Assembly: GCA_029260475.1 (NCBI GenBank)
Contig: JAJDDE010000133.1
Coordinates: 1-33,225 of the forward strand
Length of the DNA: 33,225 nucleotides
Reading direction: 5' to 3'
DNA from: Phycisphaerales bacterium
GTDB lineage: Bacteria > Planctomycetota > Phycisphaerae > Phycisphaerales > UBA1924
The position numbers and the translations under genes are program-made. The notes beneath the pieces were generated by a model. It saw only the letters and a list, made by a program, of their open reading frames with translations. It did no database searches and was not told the DNA's origin. The first letter of the stretch is position 1; each line of letters opens with the position of its first letter. Below are positions 661 to 32,434 of the stretch, piece by piece.

Positions 661-681
661 GGGTTCTACGGTGCGCGGTGC

Positions 682-987: not shown

Positions 988-1246
988 GCTGGGGAAACCT
1001 CTTTGGTGGGTGTCGAATGGTGACCGGTACCGGGACGGACGGGCGGGACCGCTGGGACCGGGATGGCTACGATAGGCCTCTGACGCACGCGGGGCCAGAA
1101 TCGGCTTCCGAGGCCCTTCCGGGGCTATCCGGGCAGACCGCCTCGCGGATGCGTCAACCTGACGACCGGCCCACACCCCGACGGACGCCCCCTCAAGGCG
1201 AGGAGGCCCGCGCTCGGGGTGGCATCCACCCAGCGAGCAGCGCCCT

Positions 1247-1891
1247 ATGGCAGACGACAACCGGTACGGCTTCGGCGACCGAGTGGTCCACGCGGACAAG
1301 CCCGAATGGGGCGAGGCGGTCGTGACAGGCACCGCCAACGTCACCCACGAGGGCAAGCCCTGTCAGCGTCTGACGCTGCGGTTCGAGCGGGCGGGCTTGA
1401 AGCATGTTGTCACAGCCATCGCCAACATCCGCCCCGCCGGCGAGAAGGCGGCCCCCGCTCGCGATGCGGGCGAGGCGCCCGCCGCCGCGGCGGTCATGGA
1501 GGGCGGCTCCTGGCTCGATGAGGTCTCCGCGGGCGATCTCGCCCAGCGGATGGCGACGCTCCCCCAGTCCACGAACGACCCCTTCTCCAGCCTCGAAGAC
1601 CGCCTTCGCGCGACGATGGCCCTCTACCGCTTCGGTCCCAACGGCGGATCACTGCTGGATTGGGCCGCGACGCAGACGGGGCTCTCTGACCCGCTCTCGC
1701 GGTTCAGCCGTCAGGAGCTCGAGGAGTTCTTCCGGCGGTACGAGACGGAGCGGGCCAAGCGCTTCAAGGGTTTGTTATTGGACGCGAAGCGCAACGACCC
1801 GCGTCTGTTCTCGAAGATCGAGCGCGAGGCCGGTGCCAAGATGACCGACGCGGACAAACAGATGTTGCGTCGGATCAACGCGCCGCGTTGA
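1247..1891 (+). CDS. DUF3553 domain protein
   Basis: A 214-residue cytoplasmic protein with no signal peptide. Residues about 6-62 fit the DUF3553 domain, a small SH3-like or CarD-like beta barrel: FGDRVVHADKPEWGEAVVTGT, then a strand ending in FERAGLKHVV and the closing IANIRPA. Residues about 65-90 are an Ala/Gly-rich linker. The rest (about 90-214) is helical and ends in a charged region (RRYETERAKRFKGLLLDAKR) with no recognised fold. In other proteins DUF3553 occurs as an accessory domain of DNA helicases and related factors, so a nucleic-acid role is possible but not shown. It starts with ATG and is monocistronic; both flanks are intergenic stretches of over 200 nt. Confidence 0.75.
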   Translation: MADDNRYGFGDRVVHADKPEWGEAVVTGTANVTHEGKPCQRLTLRFERAGLKHVVTAIANIRPAGEKAAPARDAGEAPAAAAVMEGGSWLDEVSAGDLAQRMATLPQSTNDPFSSLEDRLRATMALYRFGPNGGSLLDWAATQTGLSDPLSRFSRQELEEFFRRYETERAKRFKGLLLDAKRNDPRLFSKIEREAGAKMTDADKQMLRRINAPR

Positions 1892-2111
1892 CCTGAGGCG
1901 ACATCGCAACACCGGCGCCCCGGGTCCACCTGAATCGGGCGTTGGTTCTGGGCGAGTCGTCCGGCCTGCACGCCCGAGAAAACCGGGACTCATCACCGAA
2001 TGGACCTCGATTCAGCGTGCCAACCCCGTTTGGCCCGCGGGTTGTCTATGTGTCTCTCCGTGCGGGGCGTGAGCCGCGTGCGACACATCAAGAGAGACGA
2101 GGACGACCCCC

Positions 2112-2387
2112 ATGAACGAGACCGATTTTCAGGCCAAGCTGGGCGAGCTGATCTCCCAGATCGATGACCTCCCGACGGGCCAGCGCGAGGAGCTCCGCAA
2201 GCTCGCCGACGAGACCAAGGCCCGGCACGACAAGATCCGCACGACGATCAAGGGTCTCCAGGACTCGCTTGATTACCTGCGCCTCAGCGTGAAGTACCTC
2301 GTATTCGATCTCGAGGCCACGCGGCGTGAGAACGAGTACCTCCGCAAGGTGGTCGAGGGCAACCACACCGATCCCAACGAGGGCTAA
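2112..2387 (+). CDS. Short coiled-coil protein, function unknown
   Basis: A 91-residue, highly charged, helical protein. Heptad-like spacing of Leu/Ile runs almost the full length (AKLGELISQIDDL; LRKLADETKARHDKI; LQDSLDYLRLSVKYLVFDLEATRREN). It has no signal peptide and no Cys. It probably forms a dimeric coiled coil. I believe similar small proteins are common in planctomycetes, but I cannot name a family. The ATG at 2112 follows the purine-rich AGAGACGAGGACGA. The gene stands alone and is followed by a strong hairpin (2485-2519). Confidence 0.7.
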   Translation: MNETDFQAKLGELISQIDDLPTGQREELRKLADETKARHDKIRTTIKGLQDSLDYLRLSVKYLVFDLEATRRENEYLRKVVEGNHTDPNEG

Positions 2388-2484
2388 GACCTTCTCTTGA
2401 TGCGCCCATGCCCCTCTTCCGCGGGGGCGTGTGGCCTTCGCGCCGTCCGTGTCCGCGCACGGGCGGCGCACCCATTCTGAACGA

Positions 2485-2519
2485 GCCCGCGCGAACGGAG
2501 GAGGACCGTTTGCGCGGGC
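2485..2519 (+). terminator. Strong GC hairpin, possible terminator of the coiled-coil gene
   Basis: The arm GCCCGCGCGAACGG (2485-2498) pairs with CCGTTTGCGCGGGC (2506-2519): 14 bp with one G.T pair and a 7-nt loop. It lies about 100 nt past the stop at 2387 and before the next plus-strand gene. No clean T-run follows on the plus strand (GTTCTGTGCG), so an intrinsic terminator is plausible but not certain. Confidence 0.45.
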
Positions 2520-2587
2520 CGTTCTGTGCGCTCAATTATTGAGGTTCCCGTTTGGAGCGACGTGCACGGCGCGGTAGCGTGGGACGC

Positions 2588-3064
2588 ATGCCGACGACCC
2601 GCCCACTGAAACTGCTCCGGAACGCGCTCATCGGGTTCGTCGTGGTGTCAGGCGTGCTGCTGCTGGTCGTGCGCTGCGCGGGGAGGGTGCCTCGGGTGGC
2701 GGTGGGAGCGCAGGTTCATGCAATCACGATCACATCGCAACAAGCGGATGGCTCGATTGTTGTCGTTGAAGTCCCGCGATCGGACGCTGACAATTTCGAT
2801 CAATTGGAGAAGTACCTCGAGGGGTTGTCGGGCCGGAGAGGCTCGGTGTCATTCGCTTCATATATTGAGGTGCTCATTGTGCAGACACCGACGTTGCGCG
2901 TGAATCTCCTGCAAGACGTGCCAGTGATCTCGACCAGGGATAATCCCGAGGACTCGTTTTGGCAGCGCGTGCTCACGCCTTCGGATGATGATGCGTCATT
3001 CAAAGCGTTCGTTGAGGATCTCTTGCACTCCGAGCACGCGGTTACGCGTTTCGGTACGCCGTGA
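2588..3064 (+). CDS. Hypothetical single-pass membrane protein
   Basis: A 158-residue protein with a basic N-terminus and one hydrophobic segment (about 10-28, NALIGFVVVSGVLLLVVRCAG). The remaining roughly 125 residues are predicted to lie outside the membrane. The Cys at the end of the hydrophobic stretch is not in a convincing lipobox. No family recognised. The ATG at 2588 is preferred to an in-frame TTG at 2552 because the hydrophobic segment then sits at the N-terminus. Codon use is less GC-biased than in the neighbours (for example around 2710-2790). The last 23 nt overlap the convergent VOC gene. Confidence 0.6.
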   Translation: MPTTRPLKLLRNALIGFVVVSGVLLLVVRCAGRVPRVAVGAQVHAITITSQQADGSIVVVEVPRSDADNFDQLEKYLEGLSGRRGSVSFASYIEVLIVQTPTLRVNLLQDVPVISTRDNPEDSFWQRVLTPSDDDASFKAFVEDLLHSEHAVTRFGTP

Positions 3065-3431
3065 TCTCCACGACGTGCCCGTCCGGATCGCTGAGATAGA
3101 TCGAGGCGCAGACGCCGTGGTCCTTGGGCTCGAAGGGGATGCCCCGAGCGTGCAGGTCCTCGGCCCAGAGCGCGAGCGACTCGGTGGTCACCCGAAAGGC
3201 GAAGTGGTCGATCGCGATGCGGCCGTCGGTGGCGTTGCGGGGCGCACCGGCGTGGACGGGGAAGAGGGCGACACCCGCACGCGATACGGGTTCCACGAGG
3301 ATCGTGGGGACGCCGTCCCAGGCATCGGGATAGATGTGCTTAAGGCCCAGCACATCCGAGTACCAGCGCACGGACGCGGCCATGTCCGAGACATGGAGCG
3401 CGACGTGATCGAGGGGGCCCAGCGGCGGCAT
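3042..3431 (-). CDS. VOC (glyoxalase/bleomycin resistance/dioxygenase) family protein
   Basis: A 129-residue single-module vicinal-oxygen-chelate protein with two beta-alpha-beta-beta-beta repeats. The first repeat begins LDHVALHVSDMAASVRWYSD (H9 a likely metal ligand); the second has IDHFAFRV (H76) and ends DPDGHVVEITAY (E122). Three of the usual four metal positions are therefore filled, so it may bind a divalent metal and act as a lyase, isomerase, dioxygenase or resistance protein; the substrate cannot be inferred. It overlaps the 3' end of the convergent upstream gene by 23 nt. Confidence 0.85.
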   Translation of the reverse strand: MPPLGPLDHVALHVSDMAASVRWYSDVLGLKHIYPDAWDGVPTILVEPVSRAGVALFPVHAGAPRNATDGRIAIDHFAFRVTTESLALWAEDLHARGIPFEPKDHGVCASIYLSDPDGHVVEITAYRNA

Positions 3432-3449
3432 GGCCCGATCCTACGACAC

Positions 3450-3698
3450 TCACGCCCGTGGCAGCGAGGCCGTTACCCGGTACCGGATCGTGCTCGCGGT
3501 CTTCCGCATGATGCCCGCCGTCTGCTCGGTGAGGTCCAGGCGGGCGGACTCGCGTTGGAGTTCGTCGGCCATCCAGAGGGCCAGGGCCCTTCGGTTGGGT
3601 GAGGGCTCACGGCTCGCTTCCGCCAGGGCGCTGTCCGCGTCCGTCTGGGCGAGCTTGATGAGCGTGTTGGCGTAGGCCTCGTCCTGCTCCCTGGTCAT
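3450..3698 (-). CDS. Small hypothetical helical protein
   Basis: An 82-residue protein starting MTREQDEAYANTLIK, rich in Ala, Glu and Arg and likely all-helical; no signal peptide and no recognised family. The ATG at 3698 has a near-perfect ribosome site (GGAGGAA, about 5 nt upstream), which decides it over the longer reading back to 3755. It lies upstream of, and on the same strand as, the VOC gene (18-nt gap), so the two may be co-transcribed. Confidence 0.65.
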   Translation of the reverse strand: MTREQDEAYANTLIKLAQTDADSALAEASREPSPNRRALALWMADELQRESARLDLTEQTAGIMRKTASTIRYRVTASLPRA

Positions 3699-3820
3699 GC
3701 CGATTCCTCCGTTGATCTTGCCGCATCGTCGAGTCCGGGGGCCCGCATGAGGCATCCGGGCGAGACTTCCTCGATGAGACTGCCTCCGGTGCGGGATGTC
3801 GGGCTAGCGCAGGTGATACG

Positions 3821-4570
3821 ATGCGGGAAATGAGCCAATTCAACGCCATCCAGGACGAAGAGCAGACCGCAGAGACCCGGGCGGCTGCCGATGACGCATC
3901 GCCCGAGACCCAGCACGGGTTCTCGGACGAACGCCTGCCTGCTGCGGTCGAGGCGGTGCTGCTCGCCTGCGACAAGCCGCTGACCCCTGCTCGCATCGCC
4001 TTGGCCCTGGGGCTCGATGAGGAGGGCTCGCAGCGTGTGAAGGACGCCGCGGCGGGCCTGAACGAGGCGTACGAGAAAGAGGGGCGGAGCTTCCGCATCG
4101 AGCACGTCGCGGGCGGGCTGCGCGTGATGACGCTCCCCGAGTTCGCGACGGCGGTCGCCGCCATCCGTGGCATGCGGGACTCCGGGCGCCTCTCCAAGGC
4201 GGCCATCGAGACGCTCGCGATCATCGCCTACCGCCAGCCCGTCACCCGCGCCGAACTGGAATCCATCCGAGGCGTCGCCTGTGGCGAGGTCGCCCGCACG
4301 CTCCTGGATCGCCGGCTCGTCGAGATCACCGGTCGCGCCGAAGAGCTCGGTCGCCCGATGCTGTACGGCACCACCAAGCGGTTCTTGGAGACCTTCGGCC
4401 TCGCGACCCTCAAAGAGCTCCCACCCGTGGAGGAATTCGACGCCGGTGCGGCTCTCCGGGCGTTTGCGGGTGTTGAAGACGCGGTGAACCCAAGATCGGA
4501 TGACGAACCCGACATCGAGCCCGACATCGAGCCCAGGCCCACACCGGACGCCCAGGCGGCAACCGACTGA
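3821..4570 (+). CDS. scpB: Segregation and condensation protein B (ScpB)
   Basis: A 249-residue ScpB, the winged-helix subunit that binds the ScpA kleisin in the SMC-ScpAB condensin. The first winged helix spans about residues 38-110 (LPAAVEAVLLACDKPLTPARIALALGL); the second follows with the signature LSKAAIETLAIIAYRQPVTRAELESIRGV and ends in GRPMLYGTTKRFLETFGL. A variable acidic/proline tail from about 205 contains a short DIEP-DIEP repeat. No scpA is next to it, unlike in many Firmicutes. An ATG at 3830 in the same frame is an alternative start; neither has a strong ribosome site. A 14-bp GC palindrome (4570-4583) starts at the last base of the stop codon. Confidence 0.93.
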   Translation: MREMSQFNAIQDEEQTAETRAAADDASPETQHGFSDERLPAAVEAVLLACDKPLTPARIALALGLDEEGSQRVKDAAAGLNEAYEKEGRSFRIEHVAGGLRVMTLPEFATAVAAIRGMRDSGRLSKAAIETLAIIAYRQPVTRAELESIRGVACGEVARTLLDRRLVEITGRAEELGRPMLYGTTKRFLETFGLATLKELPPVEEFDAGAALRAFAGVEDAVNPRSDDEPDIEPDIEPRPTPDAQAATD

Positions 4571-4659
4571 CGGGCGCGCCCGTATCCTCCTGAAGCCCCT
4601 GCGCGAGCGCCGGGTGCCAATCCCCCTCTCTCGCCCTACGCACAGAAAGCGAGGCGACG

Positions 4660-5133
4660 ATGCGTCGCGTCTTCACACTCTGCATGCTCGTCATCGCCGC
4701 CGTCCAGATCGGTGGGTGCTCGGGCCATCACGTTCGCGGCGTCGTGCTCGTGGGCGAGAACAGCTACGTCCAGATCGTGGACAAGAACGACCCGCGCCTG
4801 TCGCAGGGCGAGCCCGTGATGGGCGCGACCGTGACGAGCATCGTGGACCCGCAGTCCCTCGACAGCACGCGACTCGCGGGCGTCACGACCGACGTCTCGG
4901 GCGCGTTCTCCATCCCCGTCGAGAATTTCGGCGCCGGCTGGTTGGAGTACGAGATGGGCGTGACGGTGCGCCGCAGCAAGTTCGCCCCCGCCGAGGGGTT
5001 CTTCCCGCTGCCCGGGTCGGGCAAGCGTGTGCTCGTGGTGCTCGCGCCGGGCCGTGACGCGGTGGGCGATCGCCGGTCGGCGTTCGACGAGGACTACTCC
5101 TTCGAGCGCGACCTCGAGCGCTTCGCGCACTGA
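4660..5133 (+). CDS. Putative lipoprotein with carboxypeptidase-regulatory-like fold
   Basis: A 157-residue exported protein. The N-terminus MRRVFTLCMLVIAAVQIGGC looks like a lipoprotein signal with the modified Cys at about residue 20. The following 110 residues resemble a beta-sandwich of the carboxypeptidase-regulatory type: GEPVMGATVTSI, then LAGVTTDVSGAFSIPV, the pattern in which a G/A-x-V strand precedes a T-D-x-x-G-x-F-x-I strand. The family assignment rests on this pattern only. It is 7 nt upstream of the DUF58 gene on the same strand and likely starts that operon. Confidence 0.65.
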   Translation: MRRVFTLCMLVIAAVQIGGCSGHHVRGVVLVGENSYVQIVDKNDPRLSQGEPVMGATVTSIVDPQSLDSTRLAGVTTDVSGAFSIPVENFGAGWLEYEMGVTVRRSKFAPAEGFFPLPGSGKRVLVVLAPGRDAVGDRRSAFDEDYSFERDLERFAH

Positions 5134-5140
5134 CCCCGTC

Positions 5141-6250
5141 ATGCGCCTGCAACGCAAGTACCGCCCCCGCGCCTCGTCGCTGCTCTTCGTGGGCGTGACC
5201 GCCTTCCTTGGCATCGGCGCGATCCAGGCGGACCCGAACCTCATGCCGCTGATCTTCGGCGTCGCGATCGCGGGGCTCGTGTCGTCGGGGCTCGTTGGCG
5301 GCATGATGCTCATGGGCCTGCGCCCCAGGCGGCTCCCGTTGGGTTCGGCGCAGGTGGGCACGGTCTTCCGCGTGCGCTACGAGCTCGAATCGCGCGCACG
5401 GTTCCTGCCATCGTTCGCCCTGGGTATCAGCGAGACGCCCTCGCCGAAGCGCCGGCCCGGTTGGGAGGAGTACTTCTCCCGCGAGGGCGGCGCGGGGCGT
5501 GCGTTCGTGGCCCAAGTGGGGCCTCGAGAGTCCGTGCGCGCCGTCGGGCGCTTCGAGCCGGTGAAGCGCGGCGCGTGCGCGTTCTGCGGCGTGGAGGTCA
5601 CCAGCGGGTTCCCCTTCGGGCTGTTTCACAAGGTCGTTGCGAGCCGGCAGGGTGCCCGGGTTCTGATCCGACCGCGCGTGCGTGCGTTGCGACCCGGGGC
5701 GGTGCCGCGGCTGCTCTCGCGCCTCGGGCACGAGGCGCAGACCTCGCGGAAGCGCCGGACGGGTGAAGAGTTCTTCTCGCTGCGCGAGTACGTCGAGGGC
5801 GATTCGCCCCGTTTCATCGCGTGGCGCACCTCCGCGCGGCTCGACACGCTGGTGATCCGAGAGCACGCAGAACGCACGTGGCACCGGGTCCGGGCGCTGC
5901 TGCTGGTCTCGCCCGAGGCGGCGTCGGAGGACGTGGAGCGGGCCATCGAGCTGTACGCCTCGCTCTCGAGCGCCCTCGTGCGCACGGAGGTGTCCCTAAG
6001 CATGCGGGTGCCGCAGGCCTCCGCATCGTTCGACGGCGCGCGCCCCGCGTCGATCGGTGCGCTGCTCGATGCGCTGGCGCTGCTCGACCACACCTCGCCT
6101 GTGCCGGAGGCCTTCGAATCGACGCGCGAAGCGCTCGTGCTCGTGCGCACCGACGAGGTGTCGGGCCTCCCGACAGCGCCGGCGGGCTGCATCGTCTTCA
6201 CCTCGCGGGACCTTGATCGTCTGGCGAAGAGCGTGGGCGGTGAAGCGTGA
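5141..6250 (+). CDS. DUF58 domain protein
   Basis: A 369-residue membrane-anchored DUF58 protein. Two N-terminal hydrophobic segments (about 13-28 and 33-55) are followed by a beta-rich region (VKRGACAFCGVEVTSGFPFGLF, typical of the stretch before the DUF58 core). The DUF58 signature GEEFFSLREYVEGDSPRFIAWRTSARLDTLVIRE occurs about two-thirds along. The C-terminus resembles a reduced von Willebrand-type domain. Its stop overlaps the GTG start of the next gene (GTGA), implying translational coupling. DUF58 proteins usually sit with a MoxR AAA ATPase and a transglutaminase-like protein; here only the transglutaminase is adjacent. Confidence 0.85.
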   Translation: MRLQRKYRPRASSLLFVGVTAFLGIGAIQADPNLMPLIFGVAIAGLVSSGLVGGMMLMGLRPRRLPLGSAQVGTVFRVRYELESRARFLPSFALGISETPSPKRRPGWEEYFSREGGAGRAFVAQVGPRESVRAVGRFEPVKRGACAFCGVEVTSGFPFGLFHKVVASRQGARVLIRPRVRALRPGAVPRLLSRLGHEAQTSRKRRTGEEFFSLREYVEGDSPRFIAWRTSARLDTLVIREHAERTWHRVRALLLVSPEAASEDVERAIELYASLSSALVRTEVSLSMRVPQASASFDGARPASIGALLDALALLDHTSPVPEAFESTREALVLVRTDEVSGLPTAPAGCIVFTSRDLDRLAKSVGGEA

Positions 6251-10728: not shown

Positions 10729-11469
10729 TCATCCATCGAACAGTCGCAGCGGTTCGCCGATGACATCGATGCGATGGGTCGCGAGCACGCTCGCCGGCGG
10801 CCCTGCCGCGATGCCCGAGAAGCCCGCGGCGTCGAGCAGAGAATCCTCGAGCGACACCAGGGTGGCCTGTGTGAGTGGCCACGGATCGTGGTGGATACGC
10901 CCCGCGAAGACGCGCCCGCGTTTCTTTGTGAAGAGCCAGTACCGCTCGGTCAGAAAGTGCTCCAGCGATCCGGGTTGGGCCGTGGGCAGCGGTTCTCCGG
11001 TGCTCCAGAGAACGCGTGTCCGCGCCTTCGGCCAGGGCCCGGGGCGACGACGCAGCGCGTAGTCGTGAGCGGTGCCGCGTTGCGACACGTCAAACCCGCT
11101 GTAGACGTAATTCAATCGCCACACCCACCGCCCACCGAGCACGGGGAGCAGGTGCTGGGCATCGAGACTGAAGAACCACACGCCCGGCGTGCCGTTGACG
11201 CGGACGTAGGTGCGCACGTTGCACTCATGGAAATCCGTGAGCCCGGGCGCCCAGCCGAGGCCCGCGAAGTCGCAGTCGGTCATGGTGAAGGGCACAAGGG
11301 CGACCCACGCGCGCCCGTCGAAGGTATCGAGCTCAAGGCCCTCGGGGATCAGCGGGCGGACGAGGTCTGGATCGAGTGCCCAGTGGAGGAACAGCAGTTC
11401 GGTCCAGCTCATACGCACCGCGACGGGCGTTTCGATGTCCAGCATCTGGGCCCGTGTGGCGCTGCTCAT
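10729..11469 (-). CDS. DUF2071 (YqjF-like) protein
   Basis: A 246-residue protein of the DUF2071/YqjF family, function unknown, distantly related to acetoacetate decarboxylase-like beta-barrels. Characteristic blocks: MSWTELLFLHWALDPDLVRPLIPEGLELDTFDGRAWVALVPF near the N-terminus, FHECNVRTYVRVNGTPGVWFFSLDA in the middle, then FLTERYWLFTKKRGRVFAGRIHHDPWPL. The ATG at 11469 is the family start. The integrase reading frame of the neighbouring element runs into the first 137 nt of this gene in another frame on the same strand, a consequence of element insertion 120 nt upstream; its promoter context may have been changed by that event. Confidence 0.85.
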   Translation of the reverse strand: MSSATRAQMLDIETPVAVRMSWTELLFLHWALDPDLVRPLIPEGLELDTFDGRAWVALVPFTMTDCDFAGLGWAPGLTDFHECNVRTYVRVNGTPGVWFFSLDAQHLLPVLGGRWVWRLNYVYSGFDVSQRGTAHDYALRRRPGPWPKARTRVLWSTGEPLPTAQPGSLEHFLTERYWLFTKKRGRVFAGRIHHDPWPLTQATLVSLEDSLLDAAGFSGIAAGPPASVLATHRIDVIGEPLRLFDG

Positions 11470-12802
11470 CCACACAGGATAACGGCGCACGCGAGGGTGA
11501 AGCACGGGTAAGTTGTGTGGGGGCCAGCAGGGTGACGGGACGATCGAGCACGGGCGTGCCCGATCGTCGTATCCGCCAACGATCTGATGAATGGAGCCGG
11601 GGGGAATCGAACCCCCGCGAAATCGCCGCTCCCGATGGCGCAGAGGGGGTGTTGACACTCATGTTGACACGAGCCTCTGACCCACTGTGGACCATATTGG
11701 ATCGGCTCGGCACGACCACGGGCATCGTGTTCACCAGATCGCGTAGCCCTTGGGTACTGCGGTCGGTGTAGCGGTCTTCCATGCCTCGTGTGGTGTGACG
11801 TGTGAGAGATCGGAGTTGATCCGTTGTCTTTGCCTGCGGTCGCAGCAGGCTTGTGTAGGTGTCACGCGAGGAGTACCGAACGATGCGCGATCCGTCTGAT
11901 CGAACACGGTCAATCCCGGCACGCTCACAGTCGAGCGCGAACGTCTTCCGGGTCGGACACCCTTGGTAGAGCAGCGGATCGGCTGCCTCTCTGCCCTTTA
12001 TGAAGCGCTCGAGCACGGGAGCAAGATCATCAGGGAGCTCGACAATATCGCCGCGCTTCGCCTTGTCCTTACCGCGGGGGATCATGATGGAGTACCCGTG
12101 CTCGTCGTGGCGGATGTCGCCCACCTGGAGACGCTTTGATTCCTTCCATCGGAGCCCAGAAAAGATCATCAGGGCGTACACATCGGCGCGATACAGACGA
12201 CGCAGATCATCCGTATCGGGGTCGATGAGACGGCATAGTTCATCCAGTGTGAACGCCGCACGGTCGTATGTTTCTGTGTGTGCAGCGCTGAATCTCGGCA
12301 CGGTTCCGATGGGATTGGTGGGGATGCGTCCATCGCGTTGCAGCCAACGGAAGAGCTGTTTGGCCGCGTCGAGGTAGTGGTTGCGCGTCGATGAGGACCA
12401 AGTCGATGATTCCAGGTGCCGACGAAGAGCCAACGCGTTCGCGTCTGAGACATGACGCCAACGAAGCGACTCGAAGAGATCGCGGCAACGTTGAACAGGC
12501 TTGCGTACATAATCCGCATCTCGTCCCCGTGCCTTGAGTGACTCGCGAAACTCCTCAATGAGCCCATCGAGTGGAATTCTGGCTGTCTCGAGTTCGACCG
12601 GATCGACTATGAGCCCCGCGATCTTGCGCTCTTCTCGATTAACCCACTCTCGCCCGAGCTTCTCGGCAACGTCCTTGCGGGTGACTCCTAGGGCGTGCTG
12701 ACGAGGCCTCTGTTCGCCCGGGAAACGATGGCGGACGGTGTATGTAGGCGCGACGATGACGTTGCCGTACTTATCGCGGCGCTGGCGTCGATACACCTTC
12801 AC
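11333..12802 (-). CDS. Tyrosine recombinase/integrase, reading through the attachment site
   Basis: Phage-type integrase of 489 codons as read in the integrated state. It has an N-terminal SAM-like core-binding region (about 80-160) and a catalytic domain (about 180-360). Catalytic residues: R218 in SGLRWKE, a beta-hairpin Lys in PRGKDKAKRGD (about 245-249), R313 in YSSRDTY (box II with Tyr where His is usual), H336 in TRHTTRG and nucleophile Y345 in MEDRYTD (H-to-Y spacing 9, as expected). The domain ends near residue 362. The frame has no stop before the att core (codons 396-404) and continues 85 codons into host DNA, overlapping the start of the DUF2071 gene. The start is GTG at 12802 and overlaps the HTH gene stop by 4 nt. 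It presumably catalyses integration at ssrA. Confidence 0.9.
   Translation of the reverse strand: MKVYRRQRRDKYGNVIVAPTYTVRHRFPGEQRPRQHALGVTRKDVAEKLGREWVNREERKIAGLIVDPVELETARIPLDGLIEEFRESLKARGRDADYVRKPVQRCRDLFESLRWRHVSDANALALRRHLESSTWSSSTRNHYLDAAKQLFRWLQRDGRIPTNPIGTVPRFSAAHTETYDRAAFTLDELCRLIDPDTDDLRRLYRADVYALMIFSGLRWKESKRLQVGDIRHDEHGYSIMIPRGKDKAKRGDIVELPDDLAPVLERFIKGREAADPLLYQGCPTRKTFALDCERAGIDRVRSDGSRIVRYSSRDTYTSLLRPQAKTTDQLRSLTRHTTRGMEDRYTDRSTQGLRDLVNTMPVVVPSRSNMVHSGSEARVNMSVNTPSAPSGAAISRGFDSPRLHSSDRWRIRRSGTPVLDRPVTLLAPTQLTRASPSRAPLSCVDEQRHTGPDAGHRNARRGAYELDRTAVPPLGTRSRPRPPADPRGP
11539..11568 (-). terminator. Hairpin in the element's left flank, possibly the ancestral ssrA terminator
   Basis: Arms GACGATCG (11539-11546) and CGATCGTC (11561-11568) enclose a further GCAC/GTGC pairing (11548-11551 with 11556-11559), for about 12 bp plus one mismatch. 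No T-run follows on either strand. In the chromosome before insertion this would have lain 22-51 nt downstream of the tmRNA 3' end. Confidence 0.4.
11590..11617. repeat. Attachment-site remnant, left end (28-bp copy of tmRNA 3' end)
   Basis: Identical over 28 bp to 17278-17305 and containing the T-loop/T-arm sequence (GGAATCGAACCCCCG on the plus strand). Flanking bases differ on both sides (g versus t on the left; c versus t on the right), which fixes the repeat limits. It is the detached end of the direct repeat created by site-specific integration. Confidence 0.9.
11651..11663 (+). repeat. Candidate integrase arm-type site, left end
   Basis: GTTGACACTCATG, followed directly by a second TTGACAC (11664-11670). 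The identical 13-mer occurs at 17117-17129 near the other end, in the same orientation. It lies 33 bp inside the att core. Confidence 0.45.
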
Positions 12803-24080: not shown

Positions 24081-24259
24081 GGCGTCGTAACACCTTGCCT
24101 GTTCGGGGCTTGGCTGCCGTGGAGGGCGGGCATCGGACGCAACCCGAGTGGCCCCGGACGCGAATCGGGGGGAGCGGTACGATCCGCCGGGCTGTCTATA
24201 CGGTCATACGCTCGCCACCTCTCTCCGCCACCACCCCTCGTCTATCTGAGGACCGCACC

Positions 24260-25267
24260 ATGCCCAACGCCACAACCTCCCCGCGTACCCCCCGGGACCG
24301 CCGCGCGTTCACGCTGACGGAATTGCTCGTGGTGATCTCCATCATCGCGCTGTTGCTCGGGCTGCTGCTCCCTGTGGTCGGCGCGGTGCGCGCCGGTGCG
24401 CGGAAGGCGGCGACCGAGTCGCTGATGACGAGCATCCTCGCCGCGAGCAGCCAGTACGTCGCGGACAACCAGCGCCTGCCCGGCATCTTCAGCCAGGAGG
24501 AGATGGCCCAGGCCTCGAACGAGACCCAGGGCTTCACGCCGATGGAGAACGCGCTGCTCGCCCTCGCGGGCGGCGTGGTGAGCGACCGCACGAACAGCGC
24601 GTTCCTCCTGGTCGGTCCCTCATCCGACGATGCCCGGAAGGTGCCCATCGACATCGGGCGCATCGGTGACACCGATGGTCCGGGGTACCTCACCCTCAGC
24701 GACAGCAGCTTCGCGGCGGGCGAGCGCGGCTCCGGGCGCTCGCAGCAGAACGCGGTTGCCAATCACATCGCCATCCCCGACGTTGTCGATTCGTTCGGCT
24801 ACCCCATCCTGATGTGGGCGAAGAACGAGCAGGCGGGCCCGACCCCCTTCTTCGCGGAGCGTGACGCGAGCGATGATTCGACCAAGGCCCTCTACTACTG
24901 GTCCTCCAACATCGCGTTCCTGAACTCACGCACCCTGGGCAGACGCCTGGATTCGGACAACTACCGCAACTCGTGCCTCTCGGACCTGCAGAACACCGAC
25001 GCCGAGGTCGTTCGCACGCTGGAGGGCATGATCGGCGACCCGAGCTCCCCGCGCAGCAACACCTCGCCCCCCGAGCCCGCGCGGGCCTACGGGGATCTCG
25101 TGCTGCACTCCGCGGGTAAGGACGGGTACTTCGCAGAGAACAAGAAGGGCGATATCAACCAGTACGTCTACGTCCCCACCGGAGGCGGCAACTTCGGCGG
25201 CTCCCTCGCGGATGACGACGCCCTGGCGGACACCGTGAACGACATTCTCATCGGCGGCGGCAGCTGA
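24260..25267 (+). CDS. Type IV pilin-like/pseudopilin protein
   Basis: A 335-residue protein with a class-III leader: RRAFTLTELLVVISIIALLLGLLLPVV (about 14-40). The prepilin peptidase site is before F17; the residue before it is Ala rather than the usual Gly, while Glu at position +5 of the mature protein is kept. The leader-type helix is followed by a long extracytoplasmic domain with several low-complexity acidic and serine loops. Planctomycetes carry many such proteins of uncertain function, some associated with type II secretion. TGAGGA lies about 7 nt before the ATG. Confidence 0.83.
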   Translation: MPNATTSPRTPRDRRAFTLTELLVVISIIALLLGLLLPVVGAVRAGARKAATESLMTSILAASSQYVADNQRLPGIFSQEEMAQASNETQGFTPMENALLALAGGVVSDRTNSAFLLVGPSSDDARKVPIDIGRIGDTDGPGYLTLSDSSFAAGERGSGRSQQNAVANHIAIPDVVDSFGYPILMWAKNEQAGPTPFFAERDASDDSTKALYYWSSNIAFLNSRTLGRRLDSDNYRNSCLSDLQNTDAEVVRTLEGMIGDPSSPRSNTSPPEPARAYGDLVLHSAGKDGYFAENKKGDINQYVYVPTGGGNFGGSLADDDALADTVNDILIGGGS

Positions 25268-25367: not shown

Positions 25368-28300
25368 ATGCCACTGAATTCACTCTCTTCACCCTTCGGG
25401 CGGGCGGCGTTGTGCCTCGCGCTCGGTGCGGTGCTCGCTGTCGTTTCGGGGTTGGCACCGCGCCAGCCGCGTGAGCCGGTCAACGGCGTTGCGCGGGACG
25501 CCCTTGATTTCCATGCGATCGTCCACGCGACGCTGATCCCCTCACCGGGCGAGCGCGTCGAGGACGCGACGATCGTGATCCGCAACGGCACGATCCAGAG
25601 CGTGACCCCGGGCGGCGCGCCGCCCCAGGGTGCGCGTGTCTGGGACGCGGAGGGCCTGCTGGTCCACGGCGCCTTCATCGAGTCGTATCTGGAAGTGGAT
25701 GCGCCGGACATCAGCGTCGCCTCCGAGGGCCTGGGCAGGCACTGGAACCCCAAGGTGATGGCGGAGCGCAACGCGCTCGAGGCGGGGCAGGTCGGCGGCG
25801 CGGTCGTCGATGGCCTCCGCAAGATGGGCTTCGCGGTGGCGCACGTCGCGCCCGACGGCGGCGTCTTCCGAGGCGTCTCGGGCGTGCTCACGCTGATCCC
25901 GGACGAGGGCAGCACGCCCCCCGAGTCGCGCGTTCTGCGCGAAGAGATGGGGCATGTCGTCGCGCTCGAGTCGGGCGGGTTCAGCTCCCGCGGCTACCCG
26001 GGCTCCAAGATGGGCGCGATCGCTCTCGTCCGTCAGACGCTCGCGGACGCGGACTGGTACGCGCGCACACAACAGGCACACCAGCGGGACACGAAGTCCA
26101 CGCCCCGCCCCGCGCCGCAGAGCGCGCTGGCGAAGCTGGGCGAGGACATGCCGCTGATCTTCCCGGTTGGTGATGAACTGGACCTGATCCGGGCGAGCAA
26201 GATCGCTCGCGAATTCGACCGCGAAGCGGTGATGGTCGGCTCGGGCAACGAGTACCGGCGTCTGGACGCGGTCGTCGCGGAGGGGCGCACGATCATCGTG
26301 CCACTGGCCTTCTCGAAGGCGCCGAGCGTTTCGACCGCGGGCCAGCGTACGAACGCGTCGCTGCGAACACTGATGATGTGGGAGCAATCACCCACGAACG
26401 TGCGCCGCCTCGTGGACGCCGGCGCGGACGTGGTGCTGACGACGAGCAAGCTGCCGCGCGGGCAGAAGTTCATGCCCAACCTGCGCAAGGCGATCGAGCA
26501 CGGGCTCGACGAGGATCGCGCCTTCGCGATGCTGACCACCGGCCCCGCGGAATTGCTGGGCCTGGGTGATCGTCTCGGGCGCGTGGCGCCCGGGTTTGCG
26601 GCGAACCTCGTGGTGACGGATGCCCAGAGCCCCTTCGACGAGGAGGGCGAGATCCGCGACCTGTGGATCGACGGCGTACGCCACGAGATCAACGCGCCGC
26701 CCGCCACCGACATCTCGGGCACCTACGAGCTCACGATCGTCGGCGATGACAACGGCTTCGCGCAGTCCGGGCGTGGTCCCTTGAGCCTGGAGATCGGCAA
26801 GAACGCCAAGTCCTTCACGTTCGTGCTCGCCAACGAGGGCGTCGAGCGTGCGGAAGGTGAAGAGGCGACACCGACCAAGCTCAAGGGGCGCAAGGTGAGC
26901 GCCTTCGAGAACCGGGTGGGTGGTGCGCTGACCGCGACGGAGGTCGGCATCGACGGCAGTATCCTGATCGACTTCGTGGTCGAGGGCGACGCGGTCATCG
27001 GCACCGCGACCATGAGCGACGGCAGCGTCGCGACGTGGACCGGCGTGAAGCGTGACGACGAGCCCGAGGACGGTGAAGAGAAGGATGAGAAGGACGACAA
27101 GAAGACGCCCAGCGTCCCCGAGTCCTTCGGCCTTCCCTTCGGCGCCTACGCGATCGACGAGACACCCGAGCTGGCGCACATCGTCTTCCGCGGCGCCACC
27201 GTTTGGACCGCGAGCGATCGCGGGATCATCGAGGACGGCGAGGTCGAGATCAAGAACGGCGAGATCGTGTACGTCGGAGAATCGCGCAACGCGATGCCAA
27301 CCGGCGCGAGGATCCTCAACATGGAGGGCAAGCACATCACGCCGGGACTCATCGACTGCCACTCGCACACCGGGATCTCGGGCGGCGTCAACGAGGGTTC
27401 GCTGAGCAGCACCGCGATGGTGCGCATCTTCGACGTGATCAACCCCGACGCGATCGGCTGGTACCGCGAACTCGCGGGTGGCATCACCGCCGCCAATCAA
27501 CTGCACGGCTCGGCCAACGCCATCGGCGGGCAGAACTCCGTCGTCAAGCTGCGATGGGGCTGCGATCACCCGGACGACATGCGCTTCGAGGGCGCGCCGG
27601 GCGGCATCAAGTTCGCGCTGGGCGAGAACGTCAAGCAGTCCAACTGGGGCAGCGAGAACACGACCCGCTACCCGCAGACGCGCATGGGTGTCGAGACGTT
27701 TATCCGCTCACGCTTCATCGCGGCGCGCGAGTACCTCGCCGAGGAGCAGCGCGGCGGTGACACGTTCCGGCGCGACATGGAGCTCGAAGCGCTGGGCGAG
27801 ATCCTGCGCGGCGAGCGCCTGATCCACTGCCACAGCTACCGCCAGGACGAGATCCTGATGCTCTGCCGCGTGGCGCAGGAGTTCGGCTTCACGATCGGTA
27901 CGTTCCAGCACGTGCTCGAGGGGTACAAGGTCGCCGAGGCGATCAAGGAAGCCGCGATCGGCGGTTCCTCGTTCAGCGACTGGTGGGCGTACAAGTTCGA
28001 GGTGGTGGACGCGATCCCGGAGAACGGCGCGATCATGCACGAGGTGGGCGTGACCGTCTCCTTCAACTCCGACTCGGACGAGATGGCGCGGCGCATGAAC
28101 ACCGAGGCCGCCAAGGCGGTGAAGTACGGCGGCGTGGAGCCCAACGAGGCGCTCAAGTTTGTCACGCTCAACGCCGCGATCCAGCTCGGCATCGATGACC
28201 AGACCGGCTCGCTCGAGCGTGGCAAGGACGCGGACATCGCGGTGTGGTCCATGAGCCCCTTGAGCAGCATGACCCGCTGCGAGAGCACGTTCGTGGACGG

Positions 28301-28682
28301 CCGCGAACTCTTCTCGCTGGCGATGGACCGCACGATGCGCGAACGCAACGCCGCCGAGAAGATGCGTCTGATCCAGAAGCTCCTCGAGGACCCCAAGGCC
28401 CGCGAGAAGGCCGGCGAGTCCGAAGACGATCAGGACGGCGCCGACACAGGCGACGGCTCCGATGACACAGAATCCATCGATGGCTCCCCGCCCGAATGGC
28501 TGCTCGACGCGTTGCGCGCCAGCGGGCACTCGCACGATCACAGCCATCATCCCGAGTCCGAGGACCCCCTCGCGCTGGAGCGCGAGTACCTCTGGCTCAT
28601 CGAGAACGGCATGGACCCCGACACGAACCGTCCCGGCGAGTGCGGCTGCGGCCGCTGGGCCGGCTACCGGGAGGAGAACTGA
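25368..28682 (+). CDS. Double amidohydrolase-domain exported protein
   Basis: A 1104-residue protein with an N-terminal signal (about 1-30). Domain 1 (about 45-445) has the amidohydrolase flanking beta-sandwich and barrel pattern, but the metal motif PGLIDxHxH is replaced by VHGAFIESYLEVD. A beta-rich insert (about 450-560) and an acidic linker (DDEPEDGEEKDEKDDKK) follow. Domain 2 (about 600-1010) is intact: PGLIDCHSHTG (H665, H667), HCHSY (H820, H822), FQHVLEG (H848), NSDSDEM (D902/D904), of the imidazolonepropionase/peptidase-like class. The C-terminal tail has a His cluster (GHSHDHSHH, 1053-1061) and CGCG. Substrate unknown. The next gene starts 1 nt after the stop. Confidence 0.85.
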   Translation: MPLNSLSSPFGRAALCLALGAVLAVVSGLAPRQPREPVNGVARDALDFHAIVHATLIPSPGERVEDATIVIRNGTIQSVTPGGAPPQGARVWDAEGLLVHGAFIESYLEVDAPDISVASEGLGRHWNPKVMAERNALEAGQVGGAVVDGLRKMGFAVAHVAPDGGVFRGVSGVLTLIPDEGSTPPESRVLREEMGHVVALESGGFSSRGYPGSKMGAIALVRQTLADADWYARTQQAHQRDTKSTPRPAPQSALAKLGEDMPLIFPVGDELDLIRASKIAREFDREAVMVGSGNEYRRLDAVVAEGRTIIVPLAFSKAPSVSTAGQRTNASLRTLMMWEQSPTNVRRLVDAGADVVLTTSKLPRGQKFMPNLRKAIEHGLDEDRAFAMLTTGPAELLGLGDRLGRVAPGFAANLVVTDAQSPFDEEGEIRDLWIDGVRHEINAPPATDISGTYELTIVGDDNGFAQSGRGPLSLEIGKNAKSFTFVLANEGVERAEGEEATPTKLKGRKVSAFENRVGGALTATEVGIDGSILIDFVVEGDAVIGTATMSDGSVATWTGVKRDDEPEDGEEKDEKDDKKTPSVPESFGLPFGAYAIDETPELAHIVFRGATVWTASDRGIIEDGEVEIKNGEIVYVGESRNAMPTGARILNMEGKHITPGLIDCHSHTGISGGVNEGSLSSTAMVRIFDVINPDAIGWYRELAGGITAANQLHGSANAIGGQNSVVKLRWGCDHPDDMRFEGAPGGIKFALGENVKQSNWGSENTTRYPQTRMGVETFIRSRFIAAREYLAEEQRGGDTFRRDMELEALGEILRGERLIHCHSYRQDEILMLCRVAQEFGFTIGTFQHVLEGYKVAEAIKEAAIGGSSFSDWWAYKFEVVDAIPENGAIMHEVGVTVSFNSDSDEMARRMNTEAAKAVKYGGVEPNEALKFVTLNAAIQLGIDDQTGSLERGKDADIAVWSMSPLSSMTRCESTFVDGRELFSLAMDRTMRERNAAEKMRLIQKLLEDPKAREKAGESEDDQDGADTGDGSDDTESIDGSPPEWLLDALRASGHSHDHSHHPESEDPLALEREYLWLIENGMDPDTNRPGECGCGRWAGYREEN

Positions 28683-28683
28683 T

Positions 28684-30033
28684 ATGAAGAGCATCACCAC
28701 ACTCATCGCGAGCGTCGCGCTGTGCGCGACTTCCGGGGCCCAAGACCTTGCGCCCAAAGCGCCGTCGCAGGAGCGTGCGATCGCCATCATCGGCACCACG
28801 GTCCACACCGTGTCGGGCGAGACGATCGAGAACGGCGTCGTGGCATTCACGGACGGCGAGCTCGTCGCGGTCGGCGGTCGCGACGACGGGTCCGGCGCGG
28901 TGCCTCGTGGCGCGCGCGTGATCGACCTGTCGGGCCAGGGCCTGCACGTCTATCCCGGGCTCATCGGCGCGAACACGCTGATGGGCTTGATGGAGATCGG
29001 CGCCGCCCGCGCGACGCTGGATTACGACGAGGTCGGGCAGTTCTCCCCGGAGGTACGCGCCTCGATCAGCGTGAATCCGGACTCGACGATCATCCCTGTC
29101 ACGCGCTCCAACGGCATCCTGACCGTCGGCGTGATGCCCTCGGGAGGCACCCTGCCGGGGCGTGCGAGCGTCATCCGCATGGACGGCTGGACGAACGAGG
29201 ATCTCACGATCGATGACGATGCGGGCGTGATCGTCAACTGGCCCAGCGTGCAGCTGCAGACGGGCTGGTGGGTGCGGTCTACCGACGAGGAGCAGCGCAA
29301 GCGCACGAAGGAGCAGCTCGAGCGCATCGACGGCGCCTTCGACGAGGCCGAGGCGTACTTCGCCGCCCGCGCCGCCGACGCGACAACGCCTCAGGACCTG
29401 CGATGGGAGGCGCTGCGCGGCGTGATCTCGGGCGACGACCGCCTACTGATCCGCGCGAACGAGCTCGACCAGATCATGAGCGCCGTCCGCTGGGCGAGCG
29501 AGCGGGCCTACAAGGTCACGATCGTCGGCGGCATGGACGCGCCGCGCTGCGCGGACCTGCTCGTGCGTCACGACGCGTGGGTGATGGTCACCGGCACGCA
29601 CCGGCTGCCGAACCGGCGCGATGACGAGTACGACTGGTCGTACCGCGTGCCGCAGATGCTCGAGGAGGCGGGCGTCACCTGGTGCCTCGCGGCGACGGGT
29701 GGCAACTTCGAGACGCCCCACGAAAGGAACCTGCCCTACCACGCCGCGACCGCGGTGGCGCACGGGCTGGACCACGACGAGGCGGTGAAGTCGATCACGA
29801 TCGACGCCGCGAAGCTGCTGGGCGTCGATGACGTGCTCGGTTCGTTGGAGGTCGGCAAGGCGGCGACGCTGATCGTGACAGACGGTTCGCCGCTGGAGTT
29901 CACCACCGAGATCTCGATGGCCTTCATCGATGGCCGGCTGATCGACCTCTCGAACAAGCAGACGGAGCTCGCCGCCAAGTACCGCGAGAAGTACCGCCAG
30001 CTCGACCTGATCCCCGAGGAGGGTGAGGAGTAA
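28684..30033 (+). CDS. Amidohydrolase-like exported protein lacking metal ligands
   Basis: A 449-residue protein with a cleavable signal (MKSITTLIASVALCATSGAQ). It has the amidohydrolase layout: a small beta-sandwich (IIGTTVHTVSGETIENGVVAFTDGELVAVGG), then a barrel, then LGVDDVLGSLEVGKAATLIVTDGSPLE. The HxH motif is replaced by YPGLIGANTLMGL, and the later His positions are also changed (MDAPRCADLL). It is probably non-catalytic on its own and may form a complex with the preceding double-domain enzyme, from which it is separated by one nucleotide. GGGAGG lies about 9 nt before the ATG. Confidence 0.83.
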   Translation: MKSITTLIASVALCATSGAQDLAPKAPSQERAIAIIGTTVHTVSGETIENGVVAFTDGELVAVGGRDDGSGAVPRGARVIDLSGQGLHVYPGLIGANTLMGLMEIGAARATLDYDEVGQFSPEVRASISVNPDSTIIPVTRSNGILTVGVMPSGGTLPGRASVIRMDGWTNEDLTIDDDAGVIVNWPSVQLQTGWWVRSTDEEQRKRTKEQLERIDGAFDEAEAYFAARAADATTPQDLRWEALRGVISGDDRLLIRANELDQIMSAVRWASERAYKVTIVGGMDAPRCADLLVRHDAWVMVTGTHRLPNRRDDEYDWSYRVPQMLEEAGVTWCLAATGGNFETPHERNLPYHAATAVAHGLDHDEAVKSITIDAAKLLGVDDVLGSLEVGKAATLIVTDGSPLEFTTEISMAFIDGRLIDLSNKQTELAAKYREKYRQLDLIPEEGEE

Positions 30034-30045
30034 ACGCGATACGGC

Positions 30046-31293
30046 TTACGCCTCGTCGTCCTCGAAGATGTCCATGATCGAATCGCCCCGCTCCATCGCG
30101 AGGGCGATTTTTTTGCGCATGCCGACCGTCATTTCGCCGACCGCCCCGCCCACGAGCAGCGCGAGGCAGAGTCGCCCGTCGATGAGGCCCGTGTTGAACG
30201 CGACGGTCGCGAGGAGCAGCTGCACGATGCCGGCGCCCGCGTTGGCGCAGCGTTCGGCGTCCGTGTAGTGCGTCGAGCGGCCGACGGCCTGCATGACGCG
30301 CGCGAGCGCGTACCAGCGCAGGTCGCTGGAGATGAGCCCGATGCCGATGAGCAGCGCCCAGAAGAGCCAGTCGCCCCAGAGCGGTCCGGTCTCGATGCGT
30401 GCCACCGTCATCGCGCAGACGCCCGGGAGGAGCACGAAGAGCGCGGCGGTGTTGAGCGTGCGACGCGCCGAGCGCACGCTCACGCGGGGGAGCCGGTGGT
30501 AGAGGGGCCAACCGATCAGGATCAGCAGGAGGGCGAGGCCGGTCCCCGTCGCGAGCGACCCGGGTCCGAGAGGCGTGTGGTCGCCCGAGAGCGCGAGCAC
30601 CCGTACGAGCGTGAGACAGACGAAGCACCCGAGCAGGCACCACGGCGCGAGCGATCCGAACGCGCGTGCGCTGGGCGCCGGCGCAACGAGCGCCGCGATC
30701 GCGGCGATCGTGAGCGCCACGCTCGGCGCAGGCGTGAACCCGGTGGCTCGGACGATGGTGCCCAGCAAGGCCCCCGCGAGCACGATCCCGATGAAGGGGC
30801 CCAACCAGCCCGAACCGTCGTGCGTTCGAGGGCGCGGCAACCAGTAGGGGGCGGTGCAGGCGACGAGCAGGGCGAGCAGAACCACAGCGGCAACGCGCAG
30901 CGAGTCCGAGCGTGCTGCCCGGGCGTCGCCGAGCGACTCTTCGAAGGGCGCGCGGGTCTCCTTGCGGGCGGTGACGTACTCGTCGATCGCGACGCCGCTC
31001 ACGTCGGAGACCTGGAAACCCAGTAGGCCCGCATTGGTCTCGTCATCGAAGAGGTCGAGCTCACCCTGCTCCTCTGTGCCACCGTTGAGCCACGCGTCGT
31101 AGCTGTCGGGCCAGAGAGCGCCGACGCCGCCGTGCCCCGCGAGGAGGCCCACGACGATGCCCCCGACGAGCCCCGCGGCGCGATTGCCGCCCGGAACACC
31201 GGCGCCGCGGAAGACGAGGGCTCCGATCGCGCCGATCGCCAGCGCGATGGCGGTGATGACGAGGGCGGCGGTGGTGTCGGTGGGCGGGGTCAC
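30046..31293 (-). CDS. Polytopic membrane protein, unknown function
   Basis: A 415-residue integral membrane protein with about eight to ten hydrophobic segments. Two lie near the N-terminus (ALVITAIALAIGAIGALVF; AAGLVGGIVVGLLAGHGG), then a roughly 60-residue acidic soluble loop (EEQGELDLFDDETNAG...), then the rest. The C-terminus KKIALAMERGDSIMDIFEDDEA is cytoplasmic-looking. The Gly-rich late segments (LCLALLVGGAVGEMTVGM) recall transporters, but no family can be named. The GTG at 31293 fits the first membrane segment; the longer open frame runs antisense into lgt. Convergent with the amidohydrolase gene (12-nt gap) and divergent from lgt (49-nt gap). Confidence 0.72.
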   Translation of the reverse strand: MTPPTDTTAALVITAIALAIGAIGALVFRGAGVPGGNRAAGLVGGIVVGLLAGHGGVGALWPDSYDAWLNGGTEEQGELDLFDDETNAGLLGFQVSDVSGVAIDEYVTARKETRAPFEESLGDARAARSDSLRVAAVVLLALLVACTAPYWLPRPRTHDGSGWLGPFIGIVLAGALLGTIVRATGFTPAPSVALTIAAIAALVAPAPSARAFGSLAPWCLLGCFVCLTLVRVLALSGDHTPLGPGSLATGTGLALLLILIGWPLYHRLPRVSVRSARRTLNTAALFVLLPGVCAMTVARIETGPLWGDWLFWALLIGIGLISSDLRWYALARVMQAVGRSTHYTDAERCANAGAGIVQLLLATVAFNTGLIDGRLCLALLVGGAVGEMTVGMRKKIALAMERGDSIMDIFEDDEA

Positions 31294-31342
31294 GGGTCGA
31301 TCGTATCCGCGTTGCGCACCGGCCCCTAGTAGGATGCGAACG

Positions 31343-32434
31343 ATGATCGCACTCCCGAACACGACGATCGCGCAGGGCGCGTGGCTGCACGACCTCGATC
31401 CCATCCTGCTCCCGATCAGCGGCGCCCTCGCGGTCCGGTGGTACGGGCTCGCGTACGTCGGCGGGTTCATCGTCGCGTGGTTGCTCGTGCGCATGCTCGC
31501 GAAGCGCGGGCTCGTGAAGATCCGCCCGGAGTTCGTGAGCGACTTCATCCTCGCGGCGGTCGTCGGCGTGCTCGTCGGAGGGCGCCTCGGGTTCGCCCTC
31601 GTGTACTCGCCGGGCCTCTTCGTTGAGTTCTCCGGGAGTTTTCCCTTCTGGGGGCTGCTGAACATCACGAAGGGCGGGATGGCCAGTCACGGCGGGATGG
31701 TCGGGCTCGTCTGCGCCGCGGTCTGGGTGGCGCGACGCGAGAAGACGCACCCGCTGCACGTCCTGGACACCCTGGCCTTCGCGGCACCGCCCGGCATCGT
31801 GCTCGGTCGGCTCGCGAACTTCGTGAACGGCGAGCTGCTCGGCAAAGTCGTGGCGCAGCCGGGCGAGGCGGCGCCGCGATGGAGCGTGCGGTTTCCGCAA
31901 GAGCTGCTGAACCGACCCACCGAGGAGCAGATCGCCTGGATCGAACGCCGCTTCCCGGTCGCTGGGGATGAGGACGCGTACAACGCCGCGGTGCATCAGT
32001 TGATCGCATTTGTGCAGAAGGGCGACCCCGAGGTCCGGGCGGCGATCGAGCCGATCCTGAGCGCACGCCACCCCTCGCAGCTCTACCAGGCCTTCGCGGA
32101 GGGCGTTGTGGTATTCGCGGTGCTGCTGTTCGTGTGGCGGAAGCCGCGCCGCCCGGGTGTGATCAGCGCATGGTTCTTGGTCGTCTACGGCGTCGGACGC
32201 ATCGCGACGGAGTTCATCCGCCTGCCGGACACGGGGCTCGGGCGGACGATGGGGCTGAGCCGCGGGCAATGGCTGAGCGCGTTGATGGTGCTCGCGGGCG
32301 TTGCGCTGCTCGCGATCATCGCTCAGCGCTCGGGACGCGAGCGCTGGCCCGCACCGCTCGGTGGGTGGGCGCAGAAAAAAACCGGCGCCGCGGAGAGCGA
32401 CGCCGGTTCGGATGAAGTCTCGGGAGAATCCTGA
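31343..32434 (+). CDS. lgt: Prolipoprotein diacylglyceryl transferase
   Basis: A 363-residue inner-membrane enzyme that transfers diacylglycerol from phosphatidylglycerol to the lipobox Cys of prolipoproteins. Key blocks: VRWYGLAYVGGF; MASHGGMVG (H116); LGRLANFVNGELLGK (R156, N159, N162, E164, the Lgt signature); RHPSQLYQ (R242). Between the signature and RHPSQLY is a roughly 70-residue loop (RFPQELLNRPTEEQIAWIERRFP...) longer than in E. coli Lgt. The last 20 residues are charged and carry a terminator for the opposite gene. ATG 31343 (AGGA 8 nt upstream) is chosen; ATG 31334 is an in-frame alternative. It fits with the several predicted lipoproteins in this window. Confidence 0.95.
   Translation: MIALPNTTIAQGAWLHDLDPILLPISGALAVRWYGLAYVGGFIVAWLLVRMLAKRGLVKIRPEFVSDFILAAVVGVLVGGRLGFALVYSPGLFVEFSGSFPFWGLLNITKGGMASHGGMVGLVCAAVWVARREKTHPLHVLDTLAFAAPPGIVLGRLANFVNGELLGKVVAQPGEAAPRWSVRFPQELLNRPTEEQIAWIERRFPVAGDEDAYNAAVHQLIAFVQKGDPEVRAAIEPILSARHPSQLYQAFAEGVVVFAVLLFVWRKPRRPGVISAWFLVVYGVGRIATEFIRLPDTGLGRTMGLSRGQWLSALMVLAGVALLAIIAQRSGRERWPAPLGGWAQKKTGAAESDAGSDEVSGES
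32374..32408 (-). terminator. Intrinsic terminator of trxA inside the lgt 3' end
   Basis: On the minus strand AACCGGCGTCGC, 5-nt loop, GCGGCGCCGGTT (12 bp, one T.G pair), then a T-run. It lies 34 nt past the trxA stop, within the lgt coding sequence. Confidence 0.88.

Follow-up and report, generated by a model that had tools for sequence, protein, structure and literature searches.

By sequence, the best solved relative of the three amidohydrolase modules described here, M1, M2 and M3, is the Thermotoga amidohydrolase 3OOQ, a PDB entry which we take to correspond to locus TM0814 of Thermotoga maritima. Each of the modules has its best match to this structure, with E values of 2.5e-51 for M2, 6.1e-22 for M3 and 4.9e-10 for M1, so the triple homology is not due to chance. 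A system with an inactive partner is known from Pseudomonas aeruginosa. The aspartate transcarbamoylase of this organism needs an inactive pseudo-dihydroorotase for its activity and stability, and forming the complex gives a melting point about 30 degrees higher (PMC7053772).

The three modules are found on two genes, A and B, in a stretch of 33,225 nucleotides from a Phycisphaerales bacterium, called the window in this study. Both proteins score above the curated cut-off of 25 bits of the amidohydrolase family PF01979, gene A with 105.4 bits and gene B with 37.3 bits. None of the curated function-specific family models tried on both proteins reached its cut-off. The Xaa-Pro dipeptidase model NF051886, which requires more than 500 bits, scored 72.9 and 44.4 bits, and the imidazolonepropionase model TIGR01224, which requires more than 298.15 bits, scored 72.4 and 19.9 bits. 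The annotated relatives in the records examined are called only 'amidohydrolase' or 'amidohydrolase family protein', and no description of the trio was found in the open-licence PubMed Central literature.

Organisation and distribution of the trio

Gene A encodes 1104 amino acids, and a single base separates its stop codon from the ATG of gene B at position 28684. The ATG at 28462 given in the list of open reading frames lies upstream of the likely start of gene B. The coordinates, together with the 3OOQ matches, confirm the original prediction of three amidohydrolase modules in two adjacent genes 1 nt apart. All features are collected in Table 1. In five relatives the linker between M1 and M2 is only 41-52 residues long, which leaves no space for the small beta-strand domain. 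A prepilin-like gene with an N_methyl motif is positioned upstream of gene A (window 24095-25267) and a prolipoprotein diacylglyceryl transferase (LGT) gene downstream (window 31157-32434). Matches to tyrosine recombinases at window 11336-12802 on the minus strand are weak, all of them far under the curated cut-offs.

Table 1. Features of genes A and B, with positions in the window.
Feature	Position	Strand	Basis
Gene A, exported double-module amidohydrolase (M1, beta domain, M2, Cys/His tail)	25368..28682	+	export from signal-like start, heuristic
Signal-peptide-like N-terminus of gene A (approximate end)	25368..25469	+	sequence, hydropathy heuristic
Module M1, degenerate amidohydrolase pseudo-module	25503..26702	+	sequence match, ligand alignment
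M1 strand-1 His-x-His position, occupied by Y-L-E	25686..25694	+	alignment
Small beta-strand domain between M1 and M2	26718..27050	+	AlphaFold model
Module M2, sole module with intact metal site	27171..28367	+	sequence match, ligands, fold match
M2 His-x-His (H665, H667)	27360..27368	+	121/121 homologues
M2 strand-5 His (H822)	27831..27833	+	homology
M2 strand-6 His (H848)	27909..27911	+	homology
M2 strand-8 Asp (D902)	28071..28073	+	homology
C-terminal tail of gene A, 104 residues, with HSHDHSHH and CGCG	28368..28679	+	sequence
Shine-Dalgarno-like GGAGGAG ahead of gene B, within the end of gene A	28670..28676	+	by eye
Gene B, exported single-module protein	28684..30033	+	export from signal-like start, heuristic
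Module M3, degenerate amidohydrolase pseudo-module	28744..30009	+	sequence match, ligand alignment
M3 strand-1 His-x-His position, occupied by N-T-L	28972..28980	+	alignment

We read 121 loci, namely the window, 40 relatives from the same phylum (40 stretches from the 94 genomes that matched) and, taken from named genome records, a further 80 loci (out of 588 confirmed places). Genes were taken as reading frames from stop to stop, which are not gene predictions, and three or more of the loci are represented twice (L051/L106, L062/L141, L067/L077). The order M1, M2, M3 is found in 113 of the 121 loci. These 113 trios are partitioned into genes in four ways: [M1-M2][M3] as in the window (63 loci), [M1-M2-M3] (21), [M1][M2][M3] (17) and [M1][M2-M3] (12). 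A contig end truncates an outer module in 12 of these trios. Five of the eight other loci are likewise cut by a contig end (L060, L082, L109, L124 and L147). The other three, L121, L135 and L148, have no adjacent M3, yet a full-length M3 is found elsewhere in each of these genomes. The M1-M2 genes of L121 and L135, which have no M3 as a neighbour, end in an extension of 131-135 residues.

Judged by record titles among the matches listed, the trio is present in at least about a dozen phyla. Complete trios were detected in six cultured carriers, Singulisphaera, Undibacterium, Idiomarina, Hymenobacter, Roseivirga and Rufibacter, so the arrangement is not a binning artefact. M3 and M1 matches occur in all five sampled genomes of the source family and in none of the eight listed from the rest of the order and class, which indicates a patchy spread. 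Seven plasmid records with a relative of M3 and seven with a relative of M2 were found at the limits used, and one scan of a viral collection gave no relative. No conserved neighbour pointing to a substrate was found, the commonest neighbour cluster being present in only 12 loci.

Metal ligands and selection on the modules

In the window, the strand-1 motif of M2 is PGLIDCHSH, and the corresponding stretches of M1 and M3 read VHGAFIESYLE and YPGLIGANTLM. Both M1 and M3 also have no ligands at strands 5, 6 and 8, so that only one module has an intact metal site, as had been expected from the window sequence. The catalytically competent ligand set, consisting of His-x-His, the histidines of strands 5 and 6 and the aspartate of strand 8, is found in M2 of all 121 loci read. 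The original prediction had named relatives with a full HxH metal site in M1 or M3 as the sign of a merely local decay. Among the aligned trio rows the full set is found in 0 of 107 M1 and 0 of 111 M3 modules, these counts leaving out modules aligned over fewer than 330 residues. In a further sample of 20 Bacteroidota loci chosen by M3 alone, the ligands are present in 18 of 18 M2 modules, 0 of 18 M1 and 0 of 20 M3. Within the trio no relative of the kind named was found.

None of the four histidines is left in 99 of the 107 M1 rows, one in seven and two in one, and a single M3 row out of 111 has at least two. Two histidines at strand 1 are found in M1 of L088 and in M3 of L089, where the remaining ligands are absent. 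In M1 and M3 there is free variation at the positions once occupied by the ligands, and there is no His or Cys among those columns of the two modules that are at least 90% conserved. Other polar residues are near-invariant, namely E104, D113, R141 and R348 in M3 (98-99%) and Q223 and D227 in M1 (99%). In M2 the lysine K748 is 99% conserved, and by its presumed role, taken from related enzymes, it could bridge two metals.

Outside the trio set stands L166 from genome G007 (297-5999 of the locus, minus strand), a long reading frame in which degenerate modules flank a module with the motif PGFIDLHNH. This module is a distant relative whose best score, 170 bits, is against the M3 profile, and its other ligands align only in part.

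We built an unrooted tree of 85 rows from 20 chosen loci, 11 two-module dyads and four single-module rows including 3OOQ. M1, M2 and M3 each form one side of a branch with a support of 100/99 or better, apart from the singles and dyads. Both degenerate modules are under purifying selection, with dN/dS values of 0.04-0.22 for M1 (10 pairs) and 0.03-0.21 for M3 (11 pairs). The pairs used have at least 73% identity and unsaturated dS, which goes up to 1.1 in some of them, and six of the pairs were drawn from four genomes belonging to a single genus. Not included in these ranges are the M1 pair L050/L051 (truncated module), L054/L055 (M1 and M3) and L067/L068, both below 73% identity, and L066/L069 (saturated). 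M1 is poorly conserved, with a mean pairwise identity of 0.34 over 97 loci. Over the same number of loci the distances of the modules correlate with each other at 0.82-0.83, which we do not count as evidence because shared descent alone yields such values. The recurrence of the pseudo-active-pseudo trio in many phyla makes the dead modules look retained, and M1 and M3 look like ancient pseudo-modules that were kept as working parts rather than left to decay.

Co-retention, probable export and predicted structure

Among 118 Bacteroidota genomes, 64, or about half, carry M3 at an E value of 1e-40 or better, in a single copy in all but one. All 64 also have an M1-type match with an E value of 6.2e-75 or better, no more than 5 kb away from M3 in 56 genomes and apart from it in eight. 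In two of these eight, G252 and G268, M1 and M3 share a contig, with roughly a million bases or more between them, and in the two separated genomes that were read M1-M2 is present as a unit. Together with the three loci mentioned above, these eight genomes show that tight linkage is not universal. Only two of the 54 genomes without M3 at the cut-off have a strong M1: G294, a complete trio whose M3 missed the cut-off, and G216, in which a run of 5000 N starts within M2 and hides any M3. Weaker matches, with E values of 1.6e-32 to 4.6e-52, occur in five M3-negative genomes, of which G210 and G288 are dyads. Fisher's test on the counts 64, 2, 0 and 52 gave 1.3e-31, for genomes that are not independent of each other.

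Signal-like starts were scored with a hydropathy heuristic and not with a signal-peptide predictor. At the start of separate genes, a hydrophobic stretch is found in 105 of 108 cases for M1, 28 of 29 for M2 and 71 of 81 for M3, the other 10 M3 gene starts having no signal-like stretch by this heuristic. At the same positions inside fusions it is found in 0 of 89 cases for M2 and 1 of 34 for M3. Signal-like starts on separate genes and not inside fusions suggest that the putative complex most probably acts outside the cytoplasm. In the window both proteins start in a signal-peptide-like manner, with M2 internal to gene A, which agrees with the earlier claim that all modules are exported.

The tail of the [M1-M2] genes is rich in Cys and His. 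Cys is found in 59 of 67 such tails, and two Cys, or Cys with two His, in 54 of 67. The ends of M2-only genes have Cys in 4 of 20 cases and the combination in 1 of 20, and both are found in just 1 of 117 M3 gene ends. The frequency of Cys is 0.024 in the [M1-M2] tails versus 0.0025-0.0086 in the modules. From this composition the tail may load or gate metal.

AlphaFold modelled M1-M2 of the window with a pLDDT of 90.1 and a pTM of 0.87, and the natural Singulisphaera M2-M3 fusion with a pLDDT of 88.5 and a pTM of 0.89, both pTM values holding within one chain and being no proof of a complex between separate chains. With two large modules per chain, such values would need a confident relative placement of the modules.

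Proposed complex and comparison with known systems

We consider it likely that the products of genes A and B form an asymmetric amidohydrolase complex which is exported and in which one fold occurs three times, with M2 as the catalytic module and M1 and M3 as ancient pseudo-modules. We infer a physical complex with one active site per M1:M2:M3 unit, which, outside the cytoplasm, would hydrolyse a small substrate of peptide-like or N-acyl type; our guess for the substrate is a small peptide or amide. M2, with its His-x-His, His, His and Asp metal site, would cleave the amide or peptide bond. For their part, M1 and M3 would pack against M2, so that its substrate site is completed, stabilised or given its shape. 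We propose that they have been retained because of this packing, as in the case of the pseudo-dihydroorotase. The original suggestion of a stable complex with inactive units gains support from the natural M1-M2, M2-M3 and three-module fusions, from joint retention even when the genes are unlinked and from the high pTM of both neighbouring pairs, all of which favour a complex.

The separate genes in 17 of the 121 loci, each usually with its own signal-like start, would also fit M1 and M3 as proteins of their own that bind or deliver substrate in the same pathway as M2 and form no stable complex with it, as would an M3 located apart from M1 in 8 of the 64 Bacteroidota genomes and in L121, L135 and L148. 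We regard this as improbable, since fusions of M1 with M2, of M2 with M3 and of all three exist and both neighbouring pairs are predicted with a confident relative orientation. Still less probable is that M1 and M3 represent a different type of enzyme, metal-free or with different ligands. Their near-invariant polar residues speak for such a role but may equally serve folding or interfaces, and the free variation of the former ligand columns and the lack of highly conserved His or Cys argue against it. Local decay, with M1 and M3 as copies of an active enzyme that are dying out in the source lineage, has next to no probability. It would account for the loss of all ligands in M1 and M3 of the window, but the same loss is found in all aligned trio relatives, and M1 and M3 each form one clade and are under purifying selection. 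We rejected it on the universal ligand loss in the aligned trio relatives and the dN/dS values.

Beyond the exported complex itself, we put forward more tentatively, as a possibility we would not yet favour, that the trio represents a widespread and undescribed class of extracytoplasmic enzymes, an obligate pseudo-active-pseudo unit in which two dead copies of the active module complete the single metal site and the tail delivers or gates the metal. If the proposal is true, the trio is a natural experiment in which dead enzyme copies became required parts, with four gene partitions, three fixed roles and one active site. It would also warn annotation pipelines that two of three trio matches may not be enzymes, and it would offer a ready system for testing the roles of pseudo-modules.

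Pairs of modules, a simpler grade than the trio, are found in 18 dyads from Planctomycetota, Alphaproteobacteria and Bacteroidota (L074, L075, L157-L165, L167-L169, L172, L173, L210 and L211). The first module keeps His-x-His, His and His in 18 of 18 dyads, and the Asp too in 17, and the second has no His-x-His in 18 of 18. Thus the pairing of an active with a dead module seems to be a habit of the 3OOQ-like family. The dyads differ from the trio in having no M1 and in their second modules, which do not group with M3 in the tree (11 dyads). The Qipengyuania dyad (L074, 4114-9114) is flanked by a peptide MFS transporter gene and an FKBP-type peptidyl-prolyl isomerase gene, neighbours that weakly hint at peptides as substrate.

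Membership of the 3OOQ-like group was found by sequence for all three modules and by fold for M2 and the Singulisphaera M2-M3 protein, M1 being placed with 3OOQ by sequence only. Fold searches with the predicted models aligned 3OOQ to the M2 region with a Z score of 46.1 (367 residues, rmsd 2.2) and to the Singulisphaera M3 with a Z score of 47.0 (372 residues, rmsd 2.5). Prolidase, arginine carboxypeptidase and isoaspartyl dipeptidase structures (3FEQ, 3BE7, 3MTW, 1ONW and 2P9B) rank next for M2 with Z scores of about 24-25. These are single modules, far under 3OOQ, and the common fold says nothing about the substrate. 3OOQ is itself a single module with intact ligands, unlike the window, which has three modules, two of them without ligands, plus a signal-like start. 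The Pseudomonas system, the closest parallel that has been worked out, resembles the trio in that a dead amidohydrolase-type (dihydroorotase-like) subunit is required by an active partner (PMC7053772). It differs in that this partner is a transcarbamoylase (PMC7053772), whereas in the window there is homology between the active and dead modules, together with export-like starts.
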